Notes under the pieces: model-generated
The model's input: the letters and a program-made list of their open reading frames with translations, nothing else
Database searches by the model: none
What the model was told of the DNA's origin: nothing
Origin: Ectothiorhodospiraceae bacterium
Lineage (GTDB): Bacteria; Pseudomonadota; Gammaproteobacteria; XJ16; Halofilaceae
Assembly (NCBI GenBank): GCA_007134775.1
Contig: SLKC01000010.1
Location: 1 to 52,719, forward strand
DNA length: 52,719 nucleotides
Direction: 5' to 3'
Shown here: positions 26,526 to 50,550 of the stretch, in pieces
Layout of the letters: each line of letters starts with the position of its first letter
Numbering within the stretch: position 1 is the first letter of the stretch
Program-made: the position numbers and the translations under genes

Positions 26526-26984
26526 TCAGCCCTCTGGACGGTTATTGCGCAGTTCGGCAGCCGTCGCCGGGCGCACGCTGCGCACGCGGCAATCGAAGTG
26601 CAGGGTTCGTCCAGCCAGCGGGTGATTGCCGTCGACGACGACGCGATCCGCCTCCACCTCGACGACCCGAAGCGGGAACTCCCGATTCTGGTGGCGCGTG
26701 CGAAGCACCTGGCCGGGCTTGAGTTCGATCCCCTTGGGGAAGTAATCGGGCGGCGCCTCGAACACAAGGCGTTCGAGCCGCGGCCCATAAGCCTCGTCGG
26801 GCGGCAGCTCAATGCATCGATGCTCACCGACGGTGGCGCCGCTCAACCCCTTCTCCAATGCCGGCAGGATCTGCTGGCGGCCGTGGATGTAGCGCATCGG
26901 CTCGCCATCATCGATGCGACGACCGGCATCGTCGGTGGCGACATAGTCAACGGTTATCACCGTGTTATCGGTCACACTGATCAT
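26526..26984 (-). CDS. slyD: SlyD-type FKBP peptidyl-prolyl isomerase without metal-binding tail
   Basis: A 152-residue FKBP-fold protein with the insert-in-flap chaperone domain (GPRLERLVFEAPPDYFPKGIEL) and the conserved VDGNHPLAGRTLHFD segment of SlyD. The His-rich nickel-binding C-terminus of E. coli SlyD is absent; the protein ends in NNRPEG. The start lies two bases after the TorD-like chaperone stop, so it is translationally coupled to the molybdoenzyme operon. E. coli SlyD has been reported to bind Tat signal peptides, so a role in maturing the Tat-exported catalytic subunit is a reasonable inference. Confidence 0.88.
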   Translation of the reverse strand: MISVTDNTVITVDYVATDDAGRRIDDGEPMRYIHGRQQILPALEKGLSGATVGEHRCIELPPDEAYGPRLERLVFEAPPDYFPKGIELKPGQVLRTRHQNREFPLRVVEVEADRVVVDGNHPLAGRTLHFDCRVRSVRPATAAELRNNRPEG

Positions 26985-26986
26985 GC

Positions 26987-27973
26987 TCAAGGTTCGGGCG
27001 GCGAACCGGCCGGGCTGAGCCCCATCGAGCCCGCACGACAATCCTGGCACACCTGCAGATGGTCACTGGCGAGCCCCTTCGCCTCAAGCGCCTGGATCAT
27101 GAAGGCGAGATCCCGCCCCAGGGCGAAGGCCTGCCCACAACGACGGCAGTGTACGGGCTCCGCCTCATCATCAACCGCTCCCGTGTCCGCCGTCTCTTTC
27201 TCCGCCCTTCGCGACGCCAATGCCTCGATCAGGGTCGGCCGCGTCGGTGGTGGCGCCTCGCTCGCTTGCTCTGTCGCTGGGAGTCGTGCTGCGAGCGTCT
27301 GGCGAACGCGCTTCAGCGCATCCGCCGTCAGGCGCGCCAGCTCGAAATAGGCGAGATGCGGTGCCTCCGTACTCGCCTGCTCCCGCAGGCGCGCGACCAG
27401 ATCGGGCAACCACGCCAGCAGGAACTGATCGATGAAATCGCGGGCTTCGGCGACGAGGCCCGTACGTTCGGCCGCATCGACCGTCTCGGCGGCCAGCAAA
27501 TGGAGGTACCCGACGAACTGGAGTTGCAGTGCCAAATGATCGGGTAGATCGCGGAACGCCGCATCCCGCACCAATCCATGACGCTGGTAGCACTCCTCCA
27601 TCGCGAGCGTGCTGCCCCCCATGAGCGCGCCGTCGAGATAGATCCCGGCATTGAGCGGCGCGATCACCGGTGGCGCAAGGAAGAGCCGGCTGTAGACGCG
27701 GCGAAAGCCGCCCGGGGCGTCCGCGGCCTGCGCCAGCGCGGTGGCCAGCGTGCCCAGCCGCTGCGGTTCGACGAACTCGAGTTCCTCGTTCAACGCCTCC
27801 AGATCGGGCACCAACTCCTCTCGCAAGACGCGCGCCCGGGCCGCATCCTGAGGCAAGAGGAAGGTCTTCCCGAGCAGCACGAGCAATTCGCCGCCGAGGG
27901 ATAGACTCGAGTCGCCCGGTCCAATCGAATCACCTGCGCCCGCCGCGCACGAAGCTGGCTGTTCAACTGCCAT
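26987..27973 (-). CDS. arxD: TorD/DmsD-type molybdoenzyme chaperone with C-terminal zinc ribbon (ArxD-like)
   Basis: A 328-residue protein, longer than the usual TorD length of about 200. Residues about 30-230 form the all-helical TorD domain, including the signature LPDHLALQLQFVGYL. A Pro-rich linker leads to a treble of paired cysteines: C276-x2-C279 (CRRCGQAF) and C309-x2-C312 (CQDC), a likely zinc ribbon. The TorD part should bind the Tat signal of the catalytic subunit and hold it for cofactor insertion. The ribbon is not part of standard TorD. The 5' end is separated from the NrfD-type gene by a perfect hairpin. The gene name follows operon order and is an inference. Confidence 0.78.
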   Translation of the reverse strand: MAVEQPASCAAGAGDSIGPGDSSLSLGGELLVLLGKTFLLPQDAARARVLREELVPDLEALNEELEFVEPQRLGTLATALAQAADAPGGFRRVYSRLFLAPPVIAPLNAGIYLDGALMGGSTLAMEECYQRHGLVRDAAFRDLPDHLALQLQFVGYLHLLAAETVDAAERTGLVAEARDFIDQFLLAWLPDLVARLREQASTEAPHLAYFELARLTADALKRVRQTLAARLPATEQASEAPPPTRPTLIEALASRRAEKETADTGAVDDEAEPVHCRRCGQAFALGRDLAFMIQALEAKGLASDHLQVCQDCRAGSMGLSPAGSPPEP

Positions 27974-28023
27974 GATCCCGGCTCCAGTGGTCGCGCTCGC
28001 CCAATCGTCGATGAACTGCAGGC

Positions 28024-28057
28024 GTGGGCGGGGACCGGCGCAGCGGTCCCCGCCCAC
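28024..28057 (-). repeat. Perfect 14-bp intercistronic hairpin
   Basis: GTGGGCGGGGACCG and CGGTCCCCGCCCAC pair perfectly across a 6-base loop, three bases beyond the stop of the NrfD-type gene. No U-run follows on the minus strand. It probably protects the upstream mRNA for structural subunits and lowers expression of the chaperone. Confidence 0.7.
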
Positions 28058-28060
28058 CCC

Positions 28061-29278
28061 TCACGCCCCGGTGGCCTCCTCCCCGGCCGCCGCGGCGGGT
28101 GCTACACGCTCGGCCTTTTCCGGCGAGGCTGCCGCCAGTGAGAACCACTTCTCGCCGAGCGCATACAGGGCCGCGAGCAAGGCGAAGCCCATCACGGCGA
28201 GCAGCCATTCATTGAAGGAGGGCACATATTCGGCCAAGCCACGCTCCCAGGTTCCCTTGAACAGCGGTACGACCTGACCGCCCACCATGAAGAACAGCCG
28301 CTCGATGAACATCCCGGCGATCACGAGCAGAGACGCGATCACTTGCACGCCCATGCGTCCACGCAGGCTGCGCTGCATCAGCAGAATGAAGGGCAGGACC
28401 AGCCCTGCCCAGATCGCGAAGTGGTACCACGGGGAAGCGAGCAGGTACTGCGTCCAGACGAGATGGATGCCCGGGGTGTTCGCGTACAGTCCAGCCATGG
28501 CGCGCGTAAGAAGCAACACGAGGGTGATCCCGAGCGCCGCTGCGAACAGCTTCGGCAGCGTGCTGTCCATGATCTGGCGTACGCCCGCCGGCATCTCGGG
28601 GGTCGCCCGTCCGCCGTAGCTCACATGGAGCGCGAGAACCAGCATCGCAATCCCGGACAGCAGAGCCGTCGCATAGAAATACGCTGGCAGCAGCCCCGTG
28701 CTCCAGAAGGGGCGCATGTCCATCATGCCGAAGACCATGGCCAGCATGCCCGCAGCGAGCATCGCAGCGATGAACGACGCCAAACCGAGCTGATAGCTGG
28801 CCTTGCTGTCCCAGTCGCCCTGCTCCATGCGACGGAACTTCAACGCCATGAACAGCAGATCGAGCAGGTAGAACAGGCCCATCCAGAAAAAGGCCGACTC
28901 GATCTGCATGTTCAGCGGGATGGCAACGATCATGCGAAAGAGGTAGGGCAGCTCGACGGCCAGCACCGCGAGGCCCGCTATCAACGTGATCAGTGCCAGC
29001 CAGATCGCCCGTTTGACGATGGGATAGAAGCGTTCGAACCCGAACAGCATCGCGAGCGCGGCCACGATCGTCAGTCCGGACGACGTCAGGGCAAAGAAAA
29101 CGTAGGTGGAGATGGGCAATCCCCACGCGACCACGGCATCCATGTTGAACGCTGCATGTCCCTGGGTCGCGAGGTTGTAGCTGGCGATTGCGAAGGCGAT
29201 GGCCGCGACCACCGCGCCCGCAACCAGCACGACCGTCATCCGGTCGCCCTGCAATGCGCTATTGTCTTGTGCAGTCAT
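28061..29278 (-). CDS. arxC: NrfD/PsrC-type quinone-interacting membrane subunit (ArxC-like)
   Basis: A 405-residue integral membrane protein with about nine or ten hydrophobic helices and the polysulfide-reductase NrfD family pattern (AWGLPISTYVFFALTSSG near the N-terminus, FWMGLFYLLDLLFMALKF mid-protein). It should anchor the periplasmic catalytic and Fe-S subunits and exchange electrons with the quinone pool; no haem ligands are expected. It lies 12 bases downstream of the Fe-S subunit gene. Confidence 0.82.
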   Translation of the reverse strand: MTAQDNSALQGDRMTVVLVAGAVVAAIAFAIASYNLATQGHAAFNMDAVVAWGLPISTYVFFALTSSGLTIVAALAMLFGFERFYPIVKRAIWLALITLIAGLAVLAVELPYLFRMIVAIPLNMQIESAFFWMGLFYLLDLLFMALKFRRMEQGDWDSKASYQLGLASFIAAMLAAGMLAMVFGMMDMRPFWSTGLLPAYFYATALLSGIAMLVLALHVSYGGRATPEMPAGVRQIMDSTLPKLFAAALGITLVLLLTRAMAGLYANTPGIHLVWTQYLLASPWYHFAIWAGLVLPFILLMQRSLRGRMGVQVIASLLVIAGMFIERLFFMVGGQVVPLFKGTWERGLAEYVPSFNEWLLAVMGFALLAALYALGEKWFSLAAASPEKAERVAPAAAAGEEATGA

Positions 29279-29290
29279 GACAGATACCCC

Positions 29291-30040
29291 TTACCCTTCC
29301 GGCTCGAAGGCGGGAATACTCGCCCCGGTACCGAGATAGTAAACCTGCGGGCGGTTGCCCGTATGATCGAGCAGGCGGACGCCCTTCTTGTTGGCAATCT
29401 GCTTGTTGACGTTGCTCTCCGGATTGTCGAGATCGCCGAAGAAGCGCGCCTTCGGCGGACAGGTACGCACACAGGCGGGGACGTACTCAACCAATTCCGG
29501 ATCGTCCTCATCGAGATCCGGAACGCCCTCGGGCGCGTGCTGTACCCGGTGATAGCAGAACGTGCACTTGGAGACGACGCCCTTGGGCTGGATGCCGATA
29601 CCGCGCCGGCTGTCCTGTGCCGGATTCCGGTACGGCGGATCCCACAACGCGTTGCCGTCCTCGTCGGCGAAGACCTCCTTGAGGTCCGGCTCGACGAGTG
29701 GCTGCTCATCGGCGAAGAACCGGACGCCGTACGGGCACGCAATCATGCAGTATTTGCAACCGATGCACTTGTCCCAGTCGATGAAGACGATACCGCCGGC
29801 ATCGTGATCCTTGTAGGTTGCCCGTGTCGGGCAGACGTGGACGCAGGAGGGGTCCTCACACTGCATGCAGGGGCGCGGCAGCCACTTCATCTGTCCGCTC
29901 GGGTATTCGCCTTCACGGTAGAACAGCACATCCTGCCAGCCTTCTCCTGGCAGCGTATTGTTCTCCATGTCGCAGGCGGTCGTGCAGGCCTGACAGCCCG
30001 TGCACTTGTCCAAGTCGATGACCATTCCCCACTTAGCCAT
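29291..30040 (-). CDS. arxB: Four-cluster ferredoxin subunit of the molybdoenzyme (ArxB-like)
   Basis: A 249-residue DMSO-reductase-family electron-transfer subunit. The cysteine runs CTGCQACTTAC, CMQCEDPSCVHVC, CIGCKYCMIAC and the C-terminal CTFC...CVRTC indicate four [4Fe-4S] clusters, as in PhsB, TtrB, ArrB and ArxB. It would be carried to the periplasm with the Tat-bearing catalytic subunit, since it lacks its own signal. About 20 bases separate it from the catalytic gene. Confidence 0.85.
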   Translation of the reverse strand: MAKWGMVIDLDKCTGCQACTTACDMENNTLPGEGWQDVLFYREGEYPSGQMKWLPRPCMQCEDPSCVHVCPTRATYKDHDAGGIVFIDWDKCIGCKYCMIACPYGVRFFADEQPLVEPDLKEVFADEDGNALWDPPYRNPAQDSRRGIGIQPKGVVSKCTFCYHRVQHAPEGVPDLDEDDPELVEYVPACVRTCPPKARFFGDLDNPESNVNKQIANKKGVRLLDHTGNRPQVYYLGTGASIPAFEPEG

Positions 30041-30060
30041 AATTTCTACTCCTCAATCGG

Positions 30061-32586
30061 TCAGACCCGCTCAATGTCCACCCGCCCGCTGTAATAGGCA
30101 GCCAGGCCGGAAATGGGGTCGGAGACGTTCTCGGTGATCTCGTTCGGATTACCCGGCAGGACATCGCGGTCCTGGCCGGTCGCCCACTGCCCGTGGGCCC
30201 AGTGACCGAATTCATAGGGGAGCACGATCGTGTCCGGACGATGCTGCGGGACAAAGCGTGCGTAGGCCTCGATCGAACCGAGATCGGAGCTGATGCGCAC
30301 GCGATCACCGTCCTCGATTCCGTGGCGTTGCGCCGCGTCCGGATGGATTTCCAGATAGGTCCGGTCGTTGCCACCGACGATGGGCTGCTGCACGGCGATT
30401 GCTTGTGGCACATTCGCCCCGCGTCCTTCCGCGGTCATCGGCGTCTTCGGCGTGACGAAGAACAGCTCGCGATCACCCCCCGTGTGCGCTGGCGCGACCC
30501 ATTGCGGATAGCCGACGCGGTTGGTGGACACACCGAGCTGCTCGGCGATGTAATCGGCTTGTGTCTCAAGGTGCGCAGAACGGAATTCGAAGCGCCCCGA
30601 GGGCGTCGTCAACAGCTTCTCACCGACCTCCTCCGCCGACATCTCCCGGGTGTAGGCACTGCCATCCCATTCGTAGAAGACGCCGCGATGCTGCTTCCAC
30701 GAGCGCGGCTTACGGTACCACACCCCCTTTTCCTTCCAGGATTCGAAGCCGTCGACACCGTTGTCTCCGGGGTCATCCGCAAAGCCCTCGGCCAAGTGGC
30801 GCAGCAGGTTCTCGACATTGTCCACCCGCCGATAGTACGCACTCGTCGGCCCCTCGATGCGCTTGCCGATCTCGATGAGCATATTGCCGAATTCGGTCGT
30901 GTCGTGGATCGGCTCGACCGCAGGCACACGCAGCGCCGTCATCGGCCAGCCCTCGAACGGATACGTCGGCGAATCCTGCAACCGCTCCAGGTAGGTCGAT
31001 TCGGGCAACACGATATCGGCGAACTTCGAGGTCTCGCTGGGATAGGGCGAGGTGTCGATGACGAAGATCTCACGCAGCATCTCCTCCCACTCCGGCGCAT
31101 CCGGTGCGGTCCAGATGGGATTCGTGGTGTAGAACATCGCCATCTTCAACTTGTAGGGATCGCCCGCATTATGGTTGCGCGCGACCTCCTGCATCATCGT
31201 ACCGGCGAAGGGCCAACGCTCGGTCCCGGCCATGTCGATGCGCGGGTACTTCCCCTGCATCTCACGCGCCACCCCATCGAGATACTCGTCGGCGTGAGCG
31301 GGCCCGGGCCCGTATGACGGCCCCTCCTGATAGAACATGCCACCGTCGGCCCAGAGTGAACCGCTCAGCGCGTTGAGCGCGTGGATCGCCATGCCGTTGT
31401 AGACGCCGTTGGTATGCGAGGTTGGACCGCGCTCCATGATCGCCATCGCCGGGCGCGTGCTACCGAACTCGCGGGCCGTGGCCAGGATGTCGTCACGCGC
31501 AATGCTGGTGACCTCCGCTGCCCATTCCGGCGTGCGATCCTTGAGTTCGGCGTTCCACCAGTCGATCAAACCCGTGGTCCAGTTCTCCATGAACGTATCG
31601 GGATCGATCGTCTCGCCCGTGACGAACCGGTTTTCGCCATCGTCAAAATCGCCCACGAACTCCTTATCCCACAGCCCCTCGGTCAGCATGACGTGAGCGA
31701 TGGCGAGGGCCAGAGCCCCGTCCGTGCCCGGGCGGACCATCAGGTAGCGATCCGAAGCCGCCATCGTGGGGTTCATGCGGACATCGACCGACGTCACCTG
31801 GGTGCGCGGACTCTTGGTCCGGATATGGCCCCAGATTTGCATCAAGTAGTTGTAGGGGCGGAAGGCCTCCAGGAAGCCGGTGCCGAAGTTCAAGATGTAG
31901 TTCGTGTTGGCATAATCGTAGGCGTTGTAGGAATTGTTGCCGTCGGTCGCGGCCTTGGCGCGCTTGGAGCCCTCGGCGCAGATCGAGGCGTGGCCGATCG
32001 CCGAGTTCGGCGTGCCGACCAGCTTGCCCCAATCCCCGTAGAGACCGGCATCGCTCGGGCCCCAGCCGCGGCCATAGAAGTGTGCGAACTTGTGCGCCTC
32101 ACCATTCTCGCGCAGCTCGTTGATGCGCTGGGCAATCTCGTCGTAGGCCTCCTCCCAGGAGATCGCCTCCCAGCCGGGATCCTCGTCGCGCCCCTTGGAC
32201 GGGTTCGTGCGCCGCATCGGCCCCTTGAAGCGGTCGGGGTCGTAAAGAAAGTAGGTCCCCAGGTGTCCTTTCGGGCAGAGGCGGCCGTTGGCGATCGGAT
32301 TGCCCGCGTCACCGTAGATGCTGACTACACGCCCGTTGTGCGTATACACATCGATGCCACAGCGCGCCGGGCACTGGTGACAGATATTCTTTGTTTTCTC
32401 CAGCATATTGGGCGCAAAGCCGTCGCTCGCATGCGCGGACTCGGTGGCCGCACTGCTCGCTCCTGTGGCGGCGGTAAAGCCGACCAGCTTGTGAAGGGCA
32501 GTCGCTCCGATGGCCCCAGCGCCGGTGAACCCGGTCGCCTTCAGGAAGCGCCTTCGCGAGAACTTGGTATTCAGTATCCCGTTCAT
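30061..32586 (-). CDS. arxA: Molybdopterin catalytic subunit, ArxA-type arsenite oxidase (DMSO reductase family)
   Basis: An 841-residue bis-MGD enzyme. The Tat signal SRRRFLKATGF is near the N-terminus. C69, C72, C76 and C104 (CxxCxxxC...C) bind a [4Fe-4S] cluster, and C203 in HASICAEGSK is the likely Mo ligand, as in ArrA/ArxA. Residues 171-176 read YGRGWG; GRGWG is, as I recall from the literature, the motif separating ArxA (anaerobic arsenite oxidase) from ArrA (RGRY). The operon order (ferredoxin, catalytic, Fe-S, NrfD, TorD) matches arxB'ABCD. No ars, arxXSR or selenium genes are nearby, so the substrate remains unproven; a tetrathionate, selenate or polysulfide role is the alternative. 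Confidence 0.75.
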   Translation of the reverse strand: MNGILNTKFSRRRFLKATGFTGAGAIGATALHKLVGFTAATGASSAATESAHASDGFAPNMLEKTKNICHQCPARCGIDVYTHNGRVVSIYGDAGNPIANGRLCPKGHLGTYFLYDPDRFKGPMRRTNPSKGRDEDPGWEAISWEEAYDEIAQRINELRENGEAHKFAHFYGRGWGPSDAGLYGDWGKLVGTPNSAIGHASICAEGSKRAKAATDGNNSYNAYDYANTNYILNFGTGFLEAFRPYNYLMQIWGHIRTKSPRTQVTSVDVRMNPTMAASDRYLMVRPGTDGALALAIAHVMLTEGLWDKEFVGDFDDGENRFVTGETIDPDTFMENWTTGLIDWWNAELKDRTPEWAAEVTSIARDDILATAREFGSTRPAMAIMERGPTSHTNGVYNGMAIHALNALSGSLWADGGMFYQEGPSYGPGPAHADEYLDGVAREMQGKYPRIDMAGTERWPFAGTMMQEVARNHNAGDPYKLKMAMFYTTNPIWTAPDAPEWEEMLREIFVIDTSPYPSETSKFADIVLPESTYLERLQDSPTYPFEGWPMTALRVPAVEPIHDTTEFGNMLIEIGKRIEGPTSAYYRRVDNVENLLRHLAEGFADDPGDNGVDGFESWKEKGVWYRKPRSWKQHRGVFYEWDGSAYTREMSAEEVGEKLLTTPSGRFEFRSAHLETQADYIAEQLGVSTNRVGYPQWVAPAHTGGDRELFFVTPKTPMTAEGRGANVPQAIAVQQPIVGGNDRTYLEIHPDAAQRHGIEDGDRVRISSDLGSIEAYARFVPQHRPDTIVLPYEFGHWAHGQWATGQDRDVLPGNPNEITENVSDPISGLAAYYSGRVDIERV

Positions 32587-32612
32587 CCGGTTTCTCCTCC
32601 CCCTACACAGAG

Positions 32613-33854
32613 TTAGGGCTCGTCGTTGTCGCGATGTATCACCGGCGTCTGCGCCTTGACGCGAGCATTACTCCCGCCAAAGAGCAGATCCCGGGTTCCA
32701 CCAGCAAGCAAATGGTGTTTCTTGCGACAGGCCGGACACAGACCGTCGCTGCCGCTGCCACTGAACGGCTGGCGGCACTCGCTGCAGCGCCGAATTCGGT
32801 GTCGAATCCGACGGCCGGCCAGCCCACCGTCCGCGTGCAGCGTTACCGCCTCTTCCGGGCAGGCTCGTACGCAGAGGCCGCACGAGATACAGTGATCCGG
32901 ATCGAAGTCGATGCCGCCGGCCTCCTCTTCCATGACGACCTGCAGTGCACCCGTGGGACAGACCGCCGCGCAGACCTGATGGCCCTGACAGCGCGTCGGC
33001 GTGATGGTTACGTCCGGTTGATGGGCCGGGGACAGCGGTGCACCCAACTGTTGCGCGGCAACGACCAGGCGCCGGTGGGAGGGCACGGGATGCTCCCGGA
33101 CCGGCGGTTCGCGTCCCGCCCCACTGTCGGCCGTTGACTGCTGGCACTGCTCAGCCGTGGTCGCCGCATGCGCGAGGAGGTGGCGGAAGAGTTCGCGCCG
33201 GGAGACGCGCCGTTCGCCGCTCGCCCGCGGGATCCCCGCGGCCGTCGCCCGCGACGGTGGTAGTGGGCGTGACAGGCGCCGAGGCAGTCGCGCCGGATCC
33301 GTACCGGCTGCAGCAAGCGCTTCGCGGGCGGTCGTCTCGGCCTGGGTGGCCGCAGGCGCCGCGCCCCCAGCCGGGCAGTCGCGGCACCAGCCGCGATCCA
33401 GCAACCGCACCCCACCCGGATACTGGGCACTCAACAACGCCAGCATGCCGCCATCGAGCCCGCCAAGGCACGGCACACGTAGTGTTGGGTCGGGCGACTC
33501 CTCGTAGGGGACACGCCAGCAGTCGACGTGTAACGGTGCGTCATCGGCATCGTCCGCCGCCGACATCCGTTCCCCGGACTCGCCAATTCTCGCCGCCGCG
33601 CTCGGGAAGCCCCGTACGCGCAGGGCCGCAGTCGGACATGCGCTCGCGCACTGCCCGCAGCGGATGCAGGCATCACTGAGACTCAGTTCACCGCTGTCAG
33701 CGGCCAGGGCATCCACGGGGCAGGCACGTACGCAGGCGTCGCAGTCGGCCCAGGGCGAACGCGCGGGCAGGCAGGCTTCGCGGGCGAAGGTGACATCGGG
33801 GAGATCCGCGCGTAATGGCCGGAACGCCTGCGTCGCCGAAGTTGCACGGGCCAT
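32613..33854 (-). CDS. Polyferredoxin with C-terminal zinc ribbon (ArxB'-like)
   Basis: A 413-residue cytoplasmic-looking ferredoxin and first gene of the operon. Cluster motifs: C38/C41/C45 with C28 as a possible fourth ligand, C63/C66/C69/C73, C289/H292/C295/C299 where His replaces the second Cys, and C322/C325/C328/C332. Between them lies an Ala/Pro/Arg-rich linker. The end carries C357-x2-C360 and C373-x2-C376, a zinc ribbon whose CSECRQPF resembles the CRRCGQAF of the downstream chaperone. It sits where arxB' (arxB2) sits in arx operons. An FNR-type promoter lies upstream. Confidence 0.78.
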   Translation of the reverse strand: MARATSATQAFRPLRADLPDVTFAREACLPARSPWADCDACVRACPVDALAADSGELSLSDACIRCGQCASACPTAALRVRGFPSAAARIGESGERMSAADDADDAPLHVDCWRVPYEESPDPTLRVPCLGGLDGGMLALLSAQYPGGVRLLDRGWCRDCPAGGAAPAATQAETTAREALAAAGTDPARLPRRLSRPLPPSRATAAGIPRASGERRVSRRELFRHLLAHAATTAEQCQQSTADSGAGREPPVREHPVPSHRRLVVAAQQLGAPLSPAHQPDVTITPTRCQGHQVCAAVCPTGALQVVMEEEAGGIDFDPDHCISCGLCVRACPEEAVTLHADGGLAGRRIRHRIRRCSECRQPFSGSGSDGLCPACRKKHHLLAGGTRDLLFGGSNARVKAQTPVIHRDNDEP

Positions 33855-33884
33855 CGGGACTCCGTGAGCAGCACACGTCGCTGC

Positions 33885-33926
33885 AGTCTAGCCACACGAC
33901 CGCCCCCGAATATTGATCTAGATCAA
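33885..33926 (-). promoter_or_regulatory. FNR/ANR-activated class II promoter of the arx-type operon
   Basis: TTGATCTAGATCAA (33913-33926) is a perfect FNR box (TTGAT-N4-ATCAA). On the minus strand a TAGACT -10-like hexamer occupies 33885-33890, which puts the box centre at -41.5 from the predicted start near 33878. This is the standard spacing for FNR activation. The operon is therefore probably induced when oxygen is low. Confidence 0.8.
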
Positions 33927-36245: not shown

Positions 36246-37169
36246 TCAAGACCCTTCGCTATTGGCGGCCACCAGGGTCCCGGCCTCGCCCGTCAGGATG
36301 GCCGCCGCATCTTCGAGACGGCCGATGCCGGCGACGCCACCGGTGGCGCGAACAAAAGCGCAGGCGGACTCGACCTTCGGCCCCATGGAACCGGCGGCGA
36401 AGTCCATCGCCTCCAGTGTGGCCGGTCCGGCGCGCCCGAGCGGCCGCTGTTGCTGGCTCCCCCAATCGGCAAAGACCGCTTCCACATCGGTGAGCATCAG
36501 GAAGGCGTCGGCGCCCACTTCGCGTGCGAGCAGTCCCGCGGCGCGATCCTTGTCAATGACGGCCTCGATGCCCTCAAGGTGCCCCTCTTCGCCGCGGATC
36601 ACGGGGATCCCACCACCACCGGTACACACGACGACCACGCCAGCGTCGACCATCGTGCGGATCACGCCGCCCTGAAGGAGCTTGCGCGGATGCGGTGACG
36701 GTACCACGCGGCGCCACTGCCCCCCTTGTTCCTCGACGAAATCCCAGCCGTATTCGCCGCGCAATTGTTCGGCGACTGCCGGCTCATAGACAGGACCGAT
36801 CGGCTTGGTCGGCGCCTGGAACGCCGGATCGTCCGGTGCCACTTCGATCTGGGTGAGCAGCGTGCCGCATGGGGTATCCGCGGGCAGCGCATTCATCAGT
36901 TCCTGTTCAATCAGGTAGCCGATCATGCCCGAGCTCTCCGCACCGAGGACATCCAACGGATAGGCGGCGACCTCCGTATAGGCGAGCGCCTGCAGCGCCA
37001 GCAGGCCAACCTGGGGCCCGTTACCATGGGCGACCACGATCTCGTGCGACCGGGCCAGCTCTGCCAGCGCACGCGCCGCCACGCGCACGTTACGGCGCTG
37101 GTTCTCCGCCGTCATCGGCTCGCCCCGCCGCAACAGGGCATTGCCCCCAAGGGCCACGACAACCCGCAT
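36246..37169 (-). CDS. arcC: Carbamate kinase
   Basis: A 307-residue amino-acid-kinase-fold enzyme making ATP from carbamoyl phosphate, the last step of the arginine deiminase pathway. The motifs VVALGGNALLRRGEP, VVAHGNGPQVGLLALQ, CTGGGGIPVI and AVIDKDRAA are those of ArcC. It starts four bases after arcB, so it is co-translated. Family-typical length. Confidence 0.95.
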   Translation of the reverse strand: MRVVVALGGNALLRRGEPMTAENQRRNVRVAARALAELARSHEIVVAHGNGPQVGLLALQALAYTEVAAYPLDVLGAESSGMIGYLIEQELMNALPADTPCGTLLTQIEVAPDDPAFQAPTKPIGPVYEPAVAEQLRGEYGWDFVEEQGGQWRRVVPSPHPRKLLQGGVIRTMVDAGVVVVCTGGGGIPVIRGEEGHLEGIEAVIDKDRAAGLLAREVGADAFLMLTDVEAVFADWGSQQQRPLGRAGPATLEAMDFAAGSMGPKVESACAFVRATGGVAGIGRLEDAAAILTGEAGTLVAANSEGS

Positions 37170-37173
37170 GATC

Positions 37174-38175
37174 TCAGCCCCCCAGCGTCGCGACCAGCAT
37201 GGCCTTGATCGTGTGCAGGCGATTCTCCGCCTGCTCGAACACCACCGACGCGGGTGACTCGAACACCTCGTCGCTTACCTCCATGCAGTCGAGACCATAC
37301 TCCTCATGGACCTTGCGACCGACCTTCGTCTCAAGATCGTGGAAGGCGGGCAGACAATGCATGAACTTCGCATGGGGATTGCCCGTACCCTCCATCACTT
37401 CGCGGGTCACGCGGTAGGGTTGCAACAAACGGATGCGCTCCGCCCACACGTCGTCGGACTCTCCCATCGATACCCACACATCAGTGTGGATGTAGTCGCA
37501 GTCCCGCGTGGCCTCCGCGATGTCCTCGGTCACGGTCACGGCGCCGCCCGTGCGCTCGGCAATCCCGCGGCATTGTTCGACAATCCCCGACTCGGGCCAG
37601 CACTCCTTCGGACCGGCGAGACGGATGTCCATGCCAATCAGGGCGGCGCCGACCATCAACGACGTGCCCATATTGTTGCCGACATCGCCGAGGAAACAGA
37701 ACTTCATGTCCGACAGATGCTTGTGTGTATACTCGCGCATGGTCAGCAGATCCGCCAGGATCTGCGTCGGGTGGAACTCATCGGTAAGGCCATTGTAGAC
37801 CGGCACGCCAGCGTTGTCGGCCAAGGTCTGCGCCGCCTTCTGACTGAAGCCGCGGTACTCGATGGCGTCGTAGAGGCGACCGAGCACTCGCGCTGTATCG
37901 CGCGTACTCTCCTTGTGCCCCATCTGCGTGCCGGTAGGCCCGAGATAGGTGACATTCGCTCCTTGGTCGAAGGCGGCAACTTCAAAGGCCGCTCGCGTGC
38001 GCGTCGAGTCCTTCTCGAAGATCAGTGCGATGTTGCGTCCGACCAGGCGCTGTTGCTCGAAACCGCCGTACTTCGCGGTTTTCAGCGACGCCGATAGACG
38101 CAGCAGGAACCGGATCTCGTCTGGCGTGAAATCGAGCAGAGAGAGAACGCTTCGACCGTGCAGATTGACTGCCAT
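37174..38175 (-). CDS. arcB: Ornithine carbamoyltransferase, catabolic
   Basis: A 333-residue enzyme converting citrulline and phosphate to ornithine and carbamoyl phosphate. The carbamoyl-phosphate loop STRTR is in [20 protein letters not shown], and the catalytic HCLPAFHD motif is present. The start (ATG 38175) follows GGGAGGTG. Operon position between arcA and arcC and length support the catabolic form. Confidence 0.95.
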
Positions 38176-38206
38176 GATGCACCTCCCGTGCACCGCAAGT
38201 GCTGTG

Positions 38207-39433
38207 TCAGGCCGGATCGCGGCTCAGCGGACAGGTCATGCAGTGACCGCCACCGCGCCCGCGCCCGAGTTCCGCACCCGGCACAGTGATCACTTCCACA
38301 CCGGCCTTGCGCAACAGTGTGTTCGTGTAGGTATTGCGGTCATAGGCAACCACCACGCCGGGCTCCAGTGCAATCACGTTGTTGCCGTCATCCCACTGTT
38401 CACGCTCGGCCACATAGGCGGATCCGCCCGTACCGATGGCCCGCAGCTTGTTCACACCGATCGCCTTGGCCACCACCTCAAGGAACGGCTTCTTCTCCAT
38501 GACCGCTTCGATCCCGTTGCCATCATCGGTCGGCCCGAGGCTGTAGGCCGTGATGCGGTCGACGACTTCACTGAACACCGTGACCACATCGCGATCACAG
38601 AACGTGAAGACCGTGTCGAGATGCATGTACGAACGTTCTCGCGGCAACTGGCAGGCAATCACCCGCTCAGCGGCACCGGCTCGGAACAGTGACCGCGCAA
38701 TCTGGCCGACTGCCTGCGGGGTTGTCCGCTCGCCCATGCCGATCAGGACCACACCATTACCGATCGGCATCACATCGCCGCCCTCGCAGAAGGCCATGCC
38801 GTGATCCGTATCCGGATCGCCCCACCAGACCGGGAAATTGGCTGCACGAAAATCGGGATGGAACCGGTAGATGGCGGTGATGTTCAATGTCTCGAGGTGA
38901 CGGGCCTGCCAGCGCATCGGATTGAGGGTGACGCCACCAAAAATCCAGCAGGTGGTATCTCGAGTAAACAGGTGGTTCGGCAGCGGTGGCAGGACGAAGT
39001 CCTGGGGTGCCAGCACCGGGGCAAAGACCCCCTTCGCGTCGATCGGCAGCTCTGCCCGGCTCATGCCTCCCTCGAGGATGAGCGACAACGACTCGGCATC
39101 AAGCTCCATCAGATAGGCATGAAGATCGCCCGCCAGGCCTACCCCGACGGTATTCTCGTTGACCCGTCGGTCCAGCAACCAGCGCCGCGCCTCGGGATCC
39201 TGCAGTGTCTCCTCAAGCAGTTCGCGCAGGAACACGACCTCTGCCCCGCGGTGGCGGATCGCGTCGATGAAGGTCATGTGCTCCACGCGCGCCTGCTTGA
39301 CCCAGATCACGTCATCGAACAAGAGTTCCTTGCAATTGCGTGGCGTAAGTCGGTTCAGGGCCGCGCCAGGGCGATGCACCAGCACACGCCGCAGCTTGCC
39401 CACCTCCGAATACACACCGTACTGGATCGTCAT
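38207..39433 (-). CDS. arcA: Arginine deiminase
   Basis: A 408-residue guanidine-modifying enzyme hydrolysing arginine to citrulline and ammonium. The catalytic Cys398 lies in [14 protein letters not shown], with [12 protein letters not shown] and the HLDTVF His motif in place. ATG 39433 follows GGAGGGATGTC. It is the second gene of the operon, after the antiporter. Confidence 0.95.
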
Positions 39434-39489
39434 GACATCCCTCCTGGTCGCCCCGCAACCGGGGAGCCGGCTGCGGGGCGGGTCCTCGC

Positions 39490-41232
39490 TCAATTCGTGT
39501 CTGCCGTCCCTGCACGTTCGTCGGTGATCGGTCTACCGACGAGCCAGACCAGTGCAACGATGCCAATCAGCCCCAGGATGAGGCCAAGCCAGACCGGCAG
39601 GCCCAGGCCCACAGGCAGCAGCCCCAGCACGATGGCAATCAGCCCCACACCCAGCGCATAGGGTAGCTGCGTATTGGTATGTTCGGCCACGCCGCAATGG
39701 GAGGTCGCAGCGGACAGCACCGTGGTATCCGAGATCGGCGAGGCATGATCGCCCCAGACGGCGCCCGCGAGTACCGCCGCGATGACCCCGTGGAGAATCG
39801 CGTAGCCCGACGCATCACCCATCCCGGCCTGCTGCAGGATGGTCCAGGTCAACGGCACAGCCAGTGGCAGCAGGATGCCCATCGTGCCCCAGCTCGTGCC
39901 GATGGCGAACGACATCGCCGCCGCCAGCACAAAGATGATCACGGGCATCAGGCCGGGCGGGATTGCCTCGCCCAGCATCCCGGCAAGGAAGTCCGCCGTG
40001 TCGAGCTCCTGGGTGACATCGGACAGCGCCCAGGCGAAGGTCAGAATGACCAACACCTCGAGCACGCCGCGCACCCCGGCGAACCACGCCCCCACGGTCT
40101 CCTGCATGCTCAGAATGCCCTGCCCCACGCTGAGCACCGCGGCGACCAGCACCGCCAGCAGCGACCCCCAGAGCAAGGTATTGAACGGATCCGCGCTGCC
40201 GATCACCTCGCGCAGATTGTCGCCCTCCCCCGTGATGAACAGCCCCGCGACGGTGGCCACGACGAGGACGACCACCGGCAACCAGGCATTGATCGTGCGC
40301 AGCGGGATCTCCGCCTTGGCGCGCAACTCATCGCCCGTATCGTCGGCCTCCTCGACTACCTCGTCGCCATAATTCAGGCGGCCCTCACGCGCGGCCTGGC
40401 GCTCGGCCTTCGCCATCGGCCCGAAGTCACGTCCGGTAGCGATCACCAGCCACATGAAGATGAACGCCAGAATCGGATAGAACATGTAGGGCAGCGCATT
40501 GATGAAGGCGCCGTAGGCGGCGATCTCATAGCCTTCGAGACCGCCCGTGGCGTCTCCGATCAGGCCCACCTGGAAGCCGACCCAAGTGGACACCAGCATC
40601 ACAGTAGCAAGCGGTGCCGCGCAGGTATCGACGACATACGCCAGCTTTGCGCGCGAGATCTTCAGACGGTCGGTCATCGGCCGTACGGCATTGCCGTGGA
40701 CCAGCATGCTGGAGTAGTCGTCAAAGAAGATCGCCGTACCGACGGCGCCGGATGCGACATTACCGCGGCGGCGATTATGCGCCCAGCCGACGATGTGATC
40801 GACGATCGCCTTGATGCCGCCGTTATGCGAGATGATGCCCACCATGCCCGCGATGAGCATGGTGAACACGATGATCGCCATGTTGTACGGGTCGGTCAGC
40901 GCGTCGATGATCCAGGTATCGAGCGCCGACAGCAGACCGTGCCAGATGCCGGTAATGGAAACGTCCCAGGCAAACCACGCGCCCACCCAGAGGCCGGCGA
41001 ACAGGGACGGAATCACCCGGCGCGTCAGCAGCGCCAGCGCGATGGCGACGATCGGAGGCAGGAGCGACAGCCATGTGCCTGTCGCGATCGTGCCCTCGCC
41101 ATTCTCGGCCCAGGCAGTCGCGGGCAGCAGGGCGACCGCGAAGGTGGCAATTGCCAGTGCGGAGGGCACAACCAATGCTCGTTCGCCGCATCCGCCGATG
41201 CGACGCACGGTGCTGATGAGATTCGGAATCAT
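39490..41232 (-). CDS. NhaC-family antiporter in the ADI operon
   Basis: A 580-residue membrane protein with a signal-like N-terminus and about 12 or more helices. It is of the NhaC Na+/H+ antiporter superfamily ([41 protein letters not shown] and [21 protein letters not shown]). It occupies the operon position usually held by the arginine/ornithine exchanger ArcD, which is missing, so it may carry out that exchange or couple Na+ to it. A Na+/H+ role in a haloalkaliphile is the alternative. AGGGAAG precedes ATG 41232; a 6-bp GGCCGG/CCGGCC hairpin lies just upstream. Confidence 0.82.
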
Positions 41233-41317: not shown

Positions 41318-44047
41318 TCAAGTAGGCACGTCTTGCCCTGCGCCGCCATCGCGGCGACGGCGAAATATCGCCTTCTCCAGCTCCACCAGGACGAACAATG
41401 CGATACCGAAGGCGAGGATACGCAACCATTCGACGCTGCTGATCGCTGTCGTGCCGAACAGGAACTGCAGCGGCGGTGCGTAGGTGAACAGGGCCTGGAG
41501 CACGATGAGCCCCCCTACCGCGCCCAGCACCGCCCGGCTGCCGAACAGGCCGGCGCGGTTCACCACCGGCTCGAGGATGTAGCGGCTGTTGAACAGGTAG
41601 AAGAGCTGCCCCATCACCAGCGTGTTGATCGCCACCGTCCGCGCGAGTTCCACCTCGGCCCCCTGGTGTTCCATCCACAGGAAGTGGCCGAATGTGCCGC
41701 CGACCAGCAGGGCGGAGACGAAGCCGATCCGCCACAGCAGAAACCGCGACAGGATGGGCGTCCCGGGCGGTCGCGGCGGCCGCTCCATAACCCCGGGTTC
41801 GGTCGGCTCGAACGCCAGCGCCAGCGCCAGCGTGACCGCGGTGACCATGTTGACCCACAGCACCTGCACGGGTGTCAGCGGTAGCGTCAGGCCCAGCAGG
41901 ATCGCGGCGACGATCGTAAAGGCTTGGCCGCCGTTGGTCGGCAGCAGGAACAGAATGGCCTTGCGCAGGTTGTCATAGACGGTCCGCCCCTCCTCAACGG
42001 CGTGCGCGATCGACGCGAAATTGTCGTCAGCCAGCACCATCTCGGCCGCCTCCCGGGAGGCTTCCGTACCCTTGATGCCCATTGCCACACCTACGTCGGC
42101 GCGCTTGAGGGCCGGAGCATCGTTGACGCCGTCGCCCGTCATCGACACCACGTGATGATTGGCCTGGATGGCCTTGACTAGCCGCAGCTTGTGTTCCGGC
42201 GTCGTCCGCGCGAAGACGTCGACCTCCCCAACACGCCGTTTCAGTTCTTCGTCGGAGGTCTGTTCGAGGTCTTGTCCGGTCATCACACCGCCGTCACCGC
42301 CGATGCCGAGCTCCACGGCGATGGCGCCTGCCGTGATGCCGTGGTCCCCGGTGATCATCTTGACGCGGATGCCGGCGTCCCGGCATTCACGCACGGCGGC
42401 GACGGCCTCCTCGCGCGGCGGATCGGCGATTCCGCATACGGCGACCAGGACGAGCCCACCGTCTTCGACGTCACTGAACTCCAACGTACGCTTGTCGGGC
42501 CCAGTCTCCCGGGTGGCGATCGCCAGAAGTCGCTGGCCGCGCCCGGCCACATCTGCCATCCACTTCTCCCAGCGTTCGCGATCGAACTCGCGGTCGCCAG
42601 TGGTCGTGCGTTCCCGGTCGCAGAGCGCCAGCACGCGCTCGGGCGCCCCCTTGAGGTAGAGGAATGTCCCGCCATCGGCGTGATGATGGTGCAGGGTCAC
42701 CATGAACTTGTACGCTGCTTCGAACGGGATTACGTCATCGCGCGGATAGGTTTCGTTCGTCTGCCGCTGATCCAGGCCGCCCTTGAGGGCGGCCGTGACC
42801 AACGCCCCCTCCGTCGGATCACCCTCCATGATCCACGCGCCGTCGCGGCGGTGGACCTCCGCGTCATTGCACAGCAGCATTGCATGCAACGTCTCGGCGA
42901 GCACCGCCTGCTCCAGTGGCTCGACGTCACCGCCCTCGCGCGTGAATCCGCCGCGGGGCTCGTAGCCCACGCCATCGACGTCGAACTCGTCCTCGGCGGT
43001 GATGATCGCCTTCACAGTCATCTCGTTGCGGGTCAGTGTGCCGGTCTTGTCCGAGCAGATCGTGGTCACCGAGCCCAGGGTCTCGACGGCGGGCAGCCGG
43101 CGGATGATGGCCTTGCGTGCCGCCATACGCTGGACTCCGATGGCCAGCGTGATGGTCATGATGGCGGGCAGGCCCTCGGGGATCGCCGCCACCGCAAGGC
43201 TAACCGCGGCCAGAAAGGTCTCGAGGATGTCGTAGTCGCGTACCCAGTATCCGAAGGCGAACGTGAGCGCGGCCAGTGTGACGATGGCCACCGATAGCCA
43301 GCGGCCGAAGCGCGCAATGTCCTGCAAGAGTGGTGTGGTCAGGGTCTCGACTTCGCCGAGCATGGCCGAGATGCGCCCGATCTCCGTCGCGCCACCGGTC
43401 GCCACGACCACACCACGCCCCTGGCCGAAGGTGACCAGCGTCCCGGAGAACGCCATCGAGGTCCGGTCACCGAGATCCGCATCGACCTCCACCGGATCCG
43501 TCTGCTTGTCGACGGCCAGCGACTCCCCAGTCAACATCGCCTCATCGATGCGCATGTTGTGCGTACGCAACAGGCGGAGATCAGCGGGCACCTTGTCGCC
43601 AGCATTGAGAAACACGACATCCCCCGGAACAAGCTCCTCGGCAGGAATCGTGCGGCGGTGGCCGTCGCGGAGGACGAGTGCTTTCGGCGACAGCATATCG
43701 CGGATGGCGTCGAGCGCCCTCTCGGCCTTGCCTTCCTGGACGAAGCCGATGATGGCGTTGATCAGTACGACGCCGAGGATGACCCCCGTATCGATCCAGT
43801 GCTGCAGCGCTGCGGTGCCCAGTGCCGCGGCGATGAGGATGTAGATCAGAACATTGTGGAACTGCAGAAGGAACCGGGTGAGTGAACTCTTGCGTGGCGG
43901 TGACGGTAACCGGTTGTCGCCGTGTGCCTTCAGACGTGTGGAAGACTCCGCAGCGTCTAGTCCATCTTCTGAGACACCCAACCTGTCCAGACAGACATCA
44001 ACTTCAAGACTGTGCCACGCGGCACGGTCGCGCGCATCATTGTCCAT
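41318..44047 (-). CDS. P2-type cation-transporting P-type ATPase (second copy)
   Basis: A 909-residue pump: N-terminal cation-ATPase domain, actuator TGES loop, TM4 motif IPEGLP, phosphorylation motif DKTGTLT, KGAPE nucleotide site, TGDGVNDAPALK hinge and C-terminal helices. In TM6 the motif reads NMVTAVTL where calcium pumps have NLVTDG, so the Ca-site Asp is Ala, and TM5 has TNGGQ in place of a Glu-containing motif. The ion is thus not predictable; Na+ or K+ are plausible. ATG 44047 is chosen with GGGAG 5 bases upstream. It is a paralogue of the pump at 45867-48623. Confidence 0.88.
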   Translation of the reverse strand: MDNDARDRAAWHSLEVDVCLDRLGVSEDGLDAAESSTRLKAHGDNRLPSPPRKSSLTRFLLQFHNVLIYILIAAALGTAALQHWIDTGVILGVVLINAIIGFVQEGKAERALDAIRDMLSPKALVLRDGHRRTIPAEELVPGDVVFLNAGDKVPADLRLLRTHNMRIDEAMLTGESLAVDKQTDPVEVDADLGDRTSMAFSGTLVTFGQGRGVVVATGGATEIGRISAMLGEVETLTTPLLQDIARFGRWLSVAIVTLAALTFAFGYWVRDYDILETFLAAVSLAVAAIPEGLPAIMTITLAIGVQRMAARKAIIRRLPAVETLGSVTTICSDKTGTLTRNEMTVKAIITAEDEFDVDGVGYEPRGGFTREGGDVEPLEQAVLAETLHAMLLCNDAEVHRRDGAWIMEGDPTEGALVTAALKGGLDQRQTNETYPRDDVIPFEAAYKFMVTLHHHHADGGTFLYLKGAPERVLALCDRERTTTGDREFDRERWEKWMADVAGRGQRLLAIATRETGPDKRTLEFSDVEDGGLVLVAVCGIADPPREEAVAAVRECRDAGIRVKMITGDHGITAGAIAVELGIGGDGGVMTGQDLEQTSDEELKRRVGEVDVFARTTPEHKLRLVKAIQANHHVVSMTGDGVNDAPALKRADVGVAMGIKGTEASREAAEMVLADDNFASIAHAVEEGRTVYDNLRKAILFLLPTNGGQAFTIVAAILLGLTLPLTPVQVLWVNMVTAVTLALALAFEPTEPGVMERPPRPPGTPILSRFLLWRIGFVSALLVGGTFGHFLWMEHQGAEVELARTVAINTLVMGQLFYLFNSRYILEPVVNRAGLFGSRAVLGAVGGLIVLQALFTYAPPLQFLFGTTAISSVEWLRILAFGIALFVLVELEKAIFRRRRDGGAGQDVPT

Positions 44048-44179
44048 TCGCACTCCCTTTACCGTACTGCCGGTGTATCGGTACCGAAACGCCTGGAGAT
44101 CATGCTCGTGGGCCTAAGCCAGGTCCACCTCAGCATGGCGGTGCAGACGAAATCTTCGACTCCTTTGGAGAGAGCATAA

Positions 44180-44247
44180 CCGCAAATCGCGGAAATGGGG
44201 TCGCGGATTGCGGCCGCTTCTCATGTCGTTGTAACCCCATAGGGGTT
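44180..44247. repeat. Two inverted repeats between the thiol-redox gene and the second ATPase
   Basis: AACCCC-ATA-GGGGTT (44233-44247) is a perfect 6-bp hairpin. CCGCAAATCGCG/CGCGGATTGCGG (44180-44191 and 44202-44213) is a 12-bp stem with one mismatch and one G-U pair. Both lie in the 243-base gap and could end or attenuate transcription coming from the upstream genes. No clear promoter was seen. Confidence 0.45.
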
Positions 44248-44296
44248 GGCGACAGCGCCCACAATTCGTGTTGACTCCGGACCGAGAATATCCTGC

Positions 44297-45802
44297 TCAC
44301 CACTCGTCCCCAATGCGCAATCCGAGCTTCGGCAACAGGCAGCGATGCAATATCAGGATGAGAACCGTCACACCCGCGGCGGCGGCGAATACACCCAGCG
44401 CACCGCGGATGTCGTGCATCAGGTCGGGGGCGACGACCAGCACACCGGCCAGGGCCAGCATGATGATGCCGCCGATGAGCTTGAGGACGCGTCCGTGGCG
44501 TTCTTCGAAGCGGTCGACACGCATGGTGGTCAGCGCGATAAAGAAGATCACCAACTCGATGGTCAGATAGATCAGAAGATAGAGACCGAGCAGGAATGCG
44601 AAAAACAACCAGTCGATATTGTGACTGGCCACAATACCACTCCACAGCACCGGAAAGCCGGCGGTACATGGCAGTTCGATAAAGGCGATGCCGGCCGCCA
44701 TCAGCGCAGTCGCACCAATGAGCGCCGGCATGGAACGACCATTGGCTATCAGGCCGCGGATCCTTCTGTAGATACCCGGCTTGTGCCTTTCGTCGATGGT
44801 AAAGGAGAGGCCCCGCTGAAACCAGAAATAATCCTTGATATTGACCACGGCAAATACTAGAGCGAACAACGCCACTACCGGATAGATCCAACCAGCCATC
44901 CGCATCAGGTTAAGCGCGCCGAATACCCCGGTGATGAACATGCCATAGATTGCCGCGGTGACTGTCAGGAACGTCAAACCCACCACCAGGATGCGCCGGC
45001 GCGAACCGGAGTGGATGACCAGCGCCAGCAAGATGGTCAACACCCACAGCGAGCAGGGATTGAAGCCGTCGACGAAGGCGATCATCGCCGTTGACACCGT
45101 TACCGGTTGCATCATCAGATCGATGGTACCGGCCAACGGTACATTGAAAGTGAGCGATTCGCGCTCAGTCGCAACTGCCTCGAAGCGCTCACTGGTATCG
45201 CGCGAATCCGGGCAGTGGTCACTCTCCAGGCAGCGTTCCACGTGGCTGGCAATCTGGCGGCGTATCATCGCGCCATCGCCGATCCAGGCCCGGCCACCGA
45301 CGAACACGGCGGGCACGGAATCCGCACCCACACCGTGCACGGCAGCTACTTCAAGGAAAAGCGCCCGGGCCTGTGCGTCGGTGTGGACCTCGTAGCTTCT
45401 CACCATCAGCGCGTCGTGCGCGTCGTCGAGCGATTGAAGGAACGGCTTTTGTGCTTGACAGTGCGGACAGGTATCGCTGACGAATACCAGCATGTGCAGC
45501 GGTTCATCATCGGCGAGTACCATTCCGGAAATCGACCAGATCGTCAGCACGATCAATACAAAACGCATCGGCAAGGTCATGCGGGGCTCATGGAATAGGG
45601 AGCCCAACGGGATCCTCCTCAGGATCCCGATACCCCCCCGGGGGCGGATCAACAAGCGGGGCCATCCGGTGCGTCCCGGCCCCTGCACATACGGAAGACC
45701 ACCGCGCGGATCCCATTCCTCGACTTCGACGTGGTCGCGCTCGGGCTCGCACTGCCCGCACGCTGGAAACTCGCCCACGAAGGAAGGAAGCCTGAAAGTC
45801 AT
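44297..45802 (-). CDS. Thioredoxin-domain / CcdA-DsbD-like thiol-redox membrane protein
   Basis: Up to 501 residues. A signal-like segment (MRFVLIVLTIWSISGMVLADD) leads to a thioredoxin or glutaredoxin-type domain with C-P-H-C (FVSDTCPHCQAQKPFL). A DsbD/CcdA-like membrane part carries the paired cysteines FNPCSLWVL and LPCTAGFP. It would pass electrons across the membrane to a periplasmic thiol. The start is ambiguous: ATG 45802 has a strong GGAGG-rich site but puts 74 residues before the signal; TTG 45607 has AGGAGG 6 bases upstream, partly inside a hairpin; ATG 45580 has none. It lies between two P-type ATPase genes in one direction. Confidence 0.75.
   Translation of the reverse strand: MTFRLPSFVGEFPACGQCEPERDHVEVEEWDPRGGLPYVQGPGRTGWPRLLIRPRGGIGILRRIPLGSLFHEPRMTLPMRFVLIVLTIWSISGMVLADDEPLHMLVFVSDTCPHCQAQKPFLQSLDDAHDALMVRSYEVHTDAQARALFLEVAAVHGVGADSVPAVFVGGRAWIGDGAMIRRQIASHVERCLESDHCPDSRDTSERFEAVATERESLTFNVPLAGTIDLMMQPVTVSTAMIAFVDGFNPCSLWVLTILLALVIHSGSRRRILVVGLTFLTVTAAIYGMFITGVFGALNLMRMAGWIYPVVALFALVFAVVNIKDYFWFQRGLSFTIDERHKPGIYRRIRGLIANGRSMPALIGATALMAAGIAFIELPCTAGFPVLWSGIVASHNIDWLFFAFLLGLYLLIYLTIELVIFFIALTTMRVDRFEERHGRVLKLIGGIIMLALAGVLVVAPDLMHDIRGALGVFAAAAGVTVLILILHRCLLPKLGLRIGDEW
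45609..45628 (-). repeat. Perfect hairpin overlapping an alternative ribosome site
   Basis: GGGATCCT-CCTC-AGGATCCC (plus-strand reading) is a perfect 8-bp stem with a 4-base loop. On the minus strand the loop and 3' arm contain GAGGAGG, the Shine-Dalgarno for the possible TTG start at 45607. The hairpin could mask that site. Confidence 0.5.
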
Positions 45803-45866
45803 CCTCACCCCCCCCTCCTGGTCGGTCCGCCGCCACTCGAGAGAGAAGTCGCTTGAGCAGCGAGAA

Positions 45867-48623: not shown

Positions 48624-48686
48624 GGAAACTCCCTGACCCTGGATTCGCCGCAATGGCGATTTGCAGCGATGATTTTCGGGCCCCCA

Positions 48687-50263: not shown

Positions 50264-50470
50264 TCAGCGCGTGATGACCGCTACCCGCATGTCGACGCGG
50301 TACGTGGTCACCACACCGTTTTCGACTTCGAGCTTCTGCCCGGCGACCCAGGCGCCCTGTATCCACTCGGGGGATTTCTCCGCCCTGACCCGCGCAATGC
50401 CGCTGCGCACGGCGTCGTCAAAGCTCTTGGGGGAATTCGAGCGAATCGCGAGAACCTTTGCCAAAGACAT
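50264..50470 (-). CDS. Dodecin-family flavin-binding protein
   Basis: A 68-residue protein with the dodecin pattern: KVLAIRSNSPKSFDDAVRSGIARV, a central W (PEWIQGAWV) and a closing GVVTTYRVDMRVAV strand. Dodecins form 12-mers that store riboflavin or FMN; the Trp stacks on flavin. Start ATG 50470 follows GGAGGG. An FNR-like box lies at 50537-50550. Confidence 0.85.
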   Translation of the reverse strand: MSLAKVLAIRSNSPKSFDDAVRSGIARVRAEKSPEWIQGAWVAGQKLEVENGVVTTYRVDMRVAVITR

Positions 50471-50536
50471 CCCGACCCTCCACTGGCACATTCGTGACTA
50501 CTTGGACCATCCTGCCAGTACCGAGCCCGGAGAACA

Positions 50537-50550
50537 TTGATTCTTGTCAA
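50537..50550 (-). promoter_or_regulatory. FNR-like box upstream of dodecin
   Basis: TTGAT-TCTT-GTCAA matches the FNR consensus in 9 of 10 positions. It is centred 73 bases before the dodecin start. The -10 expected from class II spacing is poor (CAGGAT), so support is moderate. Confidence 0.4.

Follow-up and report, generated by a model that had tools for sequence, protein, structure and literature searches.

A probable group 1 arx operon with a perfect FNR-type box and no adjoining arxXSR genes in an Ectothiorhodospiraceae bacterium

Anaerobic arsenite oxidation is usually described as arsenite-induced, with ArxXSR as the presumed sensor. How, then, would an arx operon be controlled where the arxXSR genes are missing? 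The question is raised by contig SLKC01000010.1 of an Ectothiorhodospiraceae bacterium (assembly GCA_007134775.1), of which positions 1 to 52,719 (the window) were analysed. An earlier note on this DNA saw a complete arx-type operon at 26526-33926 and offered two readings, an oxygen-controlled arsenite oxidase or a sister enzyme with a different substrate. The former is favoured by the placement of the catalytic subunit in the ArxA clade, the apparent loss of arxXSR and of a sigma-54-type promoter, a class II-like FNR promoter and a genome-encoded FNR-like protein with four cysteines. The latter is unsupported because ArxA lies inside the ArxA clade and its catalytic residues are intact. The preferred reading, with a probability of about 0.7, is a genuine ARX arsenite oxidase operon of group 1 that has been re-wired at its promoter. 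We infer the function of the enzyme, its control by oxygen and the role of an associated FKBP protein from sequence.

The arx genes lie on the minus strand in the order arxB2-A-B-C-D at 26987-33854 and are followed by an FKBP-type gene. The gaps between these six minus-strand genes are 2 to 26 bases. The first gene, arxB2 (arxB'; 32613-33854), encodes a 413-aa polyferredoxin with two pairs of 4Fe-4S motifs. It is followed by arxA (30061-32586), which encodes the 841-aa molybdopterin catalytic subunit, and by arxB (29291-30040), which encodes a 249-aa 4Fe-4S subunit (82-85% identity in the nearest relatives). The product of arxC (28061-29278) is a 405-aa NrfD/PsrC-type membrane quinone subunit. 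That of arxD (26987-28057; start codon uncertain) is a TorD/NarJ-type chaperone whose C-terminal extension carries two CxxC pairs. Family scans fit each role (polyferredoxin, ArrA-related molybdopterin subunit, QrcC/DsrO/ArrB-like Fe-S subunit, NrfD, TorD/NarJ-type chaperone and FKBP). The gene order arxB2ABCD is characteristic of ARX, and all five structural genes have the order and place first given for them. A sixth gene, for an FKBP-type prolyl isomerase, occupies the left part of the interval (26526-26984) and went unnamed in the earlier note.

The window ArxA has a twin-arginine (Tat) signal, SRRRFLKATG, close to its N-terminus and 4Fe-4S cysteines at Cys69/72/76/104. The YGRGWG motif and the cysteine Mo ligand reported before are present at residues 171-176 and Cys203. 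The motif is of the form XGRGWG in place of (R/K)GRY, and in the alignment it stands opposite RGRYSH of Shewanella ArrA (6cz7), the nearest PDB chain at 372.7 bits. Against the ArrA family profile, the window protein scores 437 bits, far below the ArrA cut-off of 1600.

When one genome per species was scanned with the window protein, 66 ArxA loci from Proteobacteria were recovered at 52 to 76% identity, many of them of soda-lake sediment origin. In 63 of the 66 loci arxB lies beside arxA, and in the other three (L050, L052 and L070) the DNA ends in or just after arxA. The arxC gene is near arxA in 62/66 loci, and an arxB2 homologue is directly upstream of arxA in 59/66. GRGWG is present in 65 of the 67 ArxA sequences, window included, and the two exceptions are truncated fragments. 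Arg173, His199, Cys203 and Tyr220, which we take to be the positions matching the ArrA substrate pocket, are kept in the window ArxA and in all 67 filled rows. Lys208 is also present in the window ArxA, yet it occurs in only 32/68 rows.

A quick tree of 85 rows (69 Arx, one ArrA-like and 15 other molybdoenzyme rows) and a careful tree of 38 rows were built. The ArxA of Alkalilimnicola ehrlichii MLHE-1 was never retrieved by the searches and is absent from the rows of both trees. In the quick tree, the 69 Arx rows form one clade and the window sequence branches beside Thioalkalivibrio. The support for the Arx clade is 100% by SH-like approximate likelihood ratio test (SH-aLRT) in the quick tree and 100/100 in the careful tree. 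In the careful tree, the window groups with T. denitrificans and its metagenome-assembled genome (MAG) relative (100/100). Support is again 100/100 after the addition of two Halorhodospira MAGs, and it is 96/98 for the wider group 1 set. Group 1 here is the quick-tree clade to which the window, T. denitrificans and the Oceanospirillales belong. In the trees, ArrA branches outside the ArxA clade. The ArrA-like row (L079) owes its name to its RGRY motif and to a 1154-bit match that does not reach the curated cut-off. Because this row has a long branch, the exact position of the root is unsure, but the deep nesting of the window within the Arx clade is unaffected. A position outside the ArxA clade, the outcome that had been named as decisive against an ARX enzyme, is thus not what the trees give. 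The window operon looks like a genuine and complete group 1 ARX arsenite oxidase operon, its function being predicted.

The window itself lacks the expected regulators. A tblastn search of the window with queries from relatives (E<=1e-6) detected none of ArxX, ArxS, ArxR, Acr3, thioredoxin-type ArsC and ArsR, in agreement with the earlier note. The absence of arxXSR is real but less odd than it had seemed. According to Ospino et al. 2019 (PMC6549141), arxXSR is absent in Halorhodospira halophila SL1, a proven oxidiser of arsenite, as well as in three Oceanospirillales genera, Halomonas, Marinospirillum and Nitrincola lacisaponensis. Clusters without arxXSR have therefore already been published, and such gene loss is of a documented kind.

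In place of these genes, a perfect FNR-type box, the palindrome TTGATCTAGATCAA, lies upstream of the operon at 33913-33926; 65.5 nt separate its centre from the ATG of arxB2. This box, also reported before, is the only perfect TTGAT-N4-ATCAA in the window, and a perfect box occurs in 0/100 dinucleotide-preserving shuffles of the window. A putative -10 element, TAGACT, is present on the minus strand at 33885-33890 (4/6 matches to TATAAT). Its spacing offset is 0 for a box at -41.5 (class II), and this placement implies a start site near 33878. No sigma-54-type -24/-12 promoter was found upstream of the window arxB2, the best candidate there having 5 mismatches. The genome also codes for an FNR-like protein with 40% identity to E. 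coli FNR. It has CQDC-N5-C and a distal Cys, which make up the four cluster cysteines, and it keeps the E..SR recognition-helix residues. The combination of a perfect FNR box and class II spacing is apparently undescribed for arx; no FNR-based model of arx regulation was found in the literature searched, some of which was available only in part.

The same promoter features were scored among the relatives. Among the 59 loci with an arxB2 match, 54 have at least 900 nt upstream and were included. The arxXSR genes were counted as present when at least two of the three matched at >=90 bits, which gave 35 loci with arxXSR and 19 without. A sigma-54-type site, defined by a kept GG/GC core and at most 3 mismatches to TGGCACGN4TTGCA, is present in 29/35 loci with arxXSR versus 1/20 without, the window being among the 20 (p 1e-8, ignoring kinship). 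The background for such sites is 9% of 2200 random stretches. FNR boxes with at most one mismatch were sought in a region that reaches from 300 nt before the extrapolated arxB2 start to 60 nt past it. They are present in 10/19 loci without arxXSR versus 3/35 with arxXSR (Fisher p=0.0006, ignoring kinship) and in 56 of 3240 random 360-nt stretches of the same loci. The one locus counted as lacking arxXSR that has a sigma-54-type site is L013, with a good site and no arxXSR in the available 2.2 kb upstream; its contig may end too early. In addition, Halomonadaceae and Nitrincola that lack arxXSR have a gene for an uncharacterised protein of about 147 aa immediately upstream of arxB2 (L016, at 8148-8588, and L015, L019, L021-L025, L059 and L065).

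The absence of arxXSR needs 8 changes on the tree. With kinship taken into account, 6.2 of 8 independent pairs link the sigma-54-type site to arxXSR in the same way and none in the opposite way (median p 0.03). The loss of the sigma-54 promoter together with arxXSR thus appears fairly well supported after correction, although borderline. The closest relatives (T. denitrificans, a Thioalkalivibrio MAG and a Halorhodospira MAG) retain arxXSR and a sigma-54-like promoter. The three nearest scorable relatives (L006, L007 and L008) combine arxXSR with a sigma-54-type site (2 mismatches) and lack an FNR box with at most one mismatch. Because the closest relatives keep both features, the swap to FNR most likely happened in the window's own lineage, and it may have happened more than once among the relatives.

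The arxA gene was not found in the two other genomes of the genus, which give only 24-29% partial matches to other molybdoenzymes. These three genomes are the whole sample of the genus, family and order. Gain in this lineage and loss in the other two would both fit the distribution. Horizontal transfer was also judged by base composition, which gives no signal; the G+C content of the arx genes (64.9%) is close to that of the two flanking sides (65.0% and 63.9%).

Under the preferred reading, [4Fe-4S]-FNR would bind the box at -41.5 when oxygen is absent. The bound FNR would then switch on sigma-70 transcription of arxB2ABCD-fkbP, both with and without arsenite. ArxA would be matured in the cytoplasm, where ArxD and perhaps the SlyD-like FKBP protein would guard the Tat signal until the cofactor is inserted. 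The mature ArxA would be exported together with ArxB. In the periplasm, ArxA would oxidise arsenite to arsenate, and the electrons would pass via ArxB and then ArxC to the quinone pool.

The FKBP-type gene (26526-26984, minus strand) starts at an ATG two bases after arxD and encodes 152 aa; the longer open reading frame overlaps arxD. E. coli SlyD (33%) and FkpB (30%) can be aligned with the whole length of the protein, the IF chaperone domain included. In these alignments the FKBP and IF domains are present and the C-terminal, His-rich nickel-binding tail is absent. Such a metal-binding tail is frequent in SlyD proteins and is not universal. Of the 27 group 1 loci, 24 have the FKBP gene no more than 850 nt downstream of arxD, and the sequence of the other three stops too soon for a call. 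In the loci outside group 1, the gene is present in 2/39 and absent from 24 with enough sequence, while 13 are not judgeable. The SlyD-like gene is therefore proposed as a sixth member of group 1 arx operons, and its product is a candidate for an unrecognised maturation factor of the ARX complex. SlyD binds twin-arginine signal peptides (PMC11198818). As ArxA has such a signal, it is a natural guess that the SlyD-like protein guards ArxA until its export. Neither "isomerase" nor "FKBP" appears in the main text of Ospino et al. 2019 (PMC6549141), as far as that text was available, and no paper linking a peptidyl-prolyl isomerase with arxA and arsenite was found in the literature searched.

Several observations weigh against the preferred reading, and some of them concern the enzyme. 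The window ArxA branch is long (0.28 to 0.32, compared with 0.02 to 0.06 in its neighbours). The protein departs from the alignment at 16/284 near-invariant columns, which is the most among all Arx rows (68 others). In the genome (3.06 Mb, 99.61% complete, 1.35% contamination), the search for arsenic genes beyond the window covered Acr3, ArsB and glutaredoxin-type ArsC, and not thioredoxin-type ArsC, ArsR, ArsM, ArsA or ArsP. None of the three was found, and the same search was positive for Acr3 in 7/14 control genomes, for glutaredoxin-type ArsC in 7/14 and for ArsB in 6/14. An arsenite oxidiser without these efflux genes would be unusual. The long branch, the departures and the missing arsenic genes are all points for a sister enzyme with another substrate, such as a sulfur, selenium or antimony oxyanion. 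The long branch is conceded as a fair one. This explanation is nevertheless rejected as very improbable: the protein is nested within the ArxA clade (100/100), and none of the 16 departures falls in YGRGWG, His199, Cys203 or Tyr220. The same enzyme could instead work mainly as an arsenate reductase. A review ascribes both activities in vitro to ArxA (PMC7533571), and a promoter with FNR control only would suit a terminal reductase. The motif is that of ArxA (GRGWG, not RGRY), however, and the attached arxB2/arxC set is typical of oxidisers, so that a reductase appears quite unlikely.

The remaining points against the preferred reading concern the promoter. No FNR box with at most one mismatch is present in 9/19 loci without arxXSR. 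A class II-spaced -10 (>=4/6) accompanies only 4/13 of the relatives' boxes, and two of these four are in loci that keep arxXSR. A sigma-70 consensus scan of the region gives no promoter-like site, which is what a class II site lacking a -35 should give. When the window is left out, the sigma-54 pair test has a median p of 0.06. The kinship-corrected link between the FNR box and arxXSR absence is not significant (3.9 pairs the same way, 0.5 opposite and 3.6 with no difference; median p 0.25), and its median p without the window is 0.375. In the window the FNR box is strong; as a rule for the relatives at large it is no more than suggestive. The same box is also recognised by regulators of the DNR type, which sense nitric oxide (NO). 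If DNR or another CRP/FNR protein reads it, expression of the same enzyme would track denitrification and not anoxia itself. The genome has five CRP/FNR-family matches, two of them with 40% and 30% identity to E. coli FNR, which leaves room for such a regulator. The better of these holds all four FNR cysteines and the E..SR residues, and NapA has no match above the cut-off in the genome, so that control by DNR seems unlikely. This search for a nitrate reductase covered NapA alone, and the missing match also weighs against the preferred reading. A standard, arsenite-induced ARX with ArxXSR encoded elsewhere in the genome is less likely still. ArxR-like NtrC-family regulators (about 40% over their full length) are present at L072 and L075, each adjoining a kinase, and the ArxX query has a single match, a PhnD-like protein with 28% identity over a partial alignment. 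When the genome was searched with ArxS and ArxX of T. denitrificans, however, no full-length orthologue of either was found. The ArxS query matches only generic kinase domains (residues about 240-480 of 481), unlike the arx-linked ArxS of relatives, which mostly align along their full length. The sigma-54-type promoter is likewise gone.

A group 1 operon re-wired to FNR is thus still preferred. A wider proposal is more tentative, and we would put it somewhat short of even odds. It holds that arx operons are of two kinds that have replaced each other repeatedly, an arsenite-sensing one with ArxXSR and a sigma-54 promoter and an oxygen-sensing one with an FNR box and neither of these. The second kind would allow constitutive anaerobic arsenite oxidation without an arsenic sensor. 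The group 1 operon would carry a dedicated SlyD-like Tat chaperone, and the oxidase may replace arsenite efflux in this bacterium.

Other features of the window and genome were recorded. Two more FNR-like boxes, with one mismatch each, lie at 50537-50550 and 50889-50902, near a small unassigned gene at 50308-50817. The FNR gene (L110) adjoins a gene that by eye resembles the alpha subunit of electron-transfer flavoprotein. The arcC, arcB and arcA genes of the arginine deiminase pathway and an antiporter-like gene are present at 36246-39493, a few kb from the arx promoter. This pathway is fermentative and elsewhere is often controlled by ANR/FNR. At 41318-48653, two cation P-type ATPase genes (PMR1/SERCA-like) flank an unassigned open reading frame of 574 aa.

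No proposed regulator for the proven or predicted arxXSR-less oxidisers was found in the literature searched, as far as its texts were available. A promoter swap to FNR would be a direct and testable answer to how they are regulated. If it is correct, finding arx transcripts in anoxic soda-lake sediment would not have to mean that the cells are exposed to arsenic.

Among known systems, the window operon is closest to ARX group 1 (A. ehrlichii MLHE-1, Thioalkalivibrio and Oceanospirillales; Ospino et al. 2019). It shares with this group arxB2ABCD, XGRGWG, the Cys Mo ligand, the Tat signal and the clade. Clusters without arxXSR are known there, and the window lacks arxXSR though its nearest relatives keep it. 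It also differs by the perfect FNR box at class II spacing and the tightly linked SlyD-like gene. In MLHE-1, an RpoN promoter and an ArxR site are described upstream of arx (Badilla et al. 2018, PMC5908839), whereas the window shows neither such a promoter nor an adjoining ArxR orthologue. The respiratory arsenate reductase ArrAB is the nearest other family and is set apart by its (R/K)GRY motif and its position outside the ArxA clade. The SlyD-like protein has the FKBP and IF chaperone domains in common with E. coli SlyD but lacks the His/Cys-rich nickel tail, and it is encoded within the arx operon.

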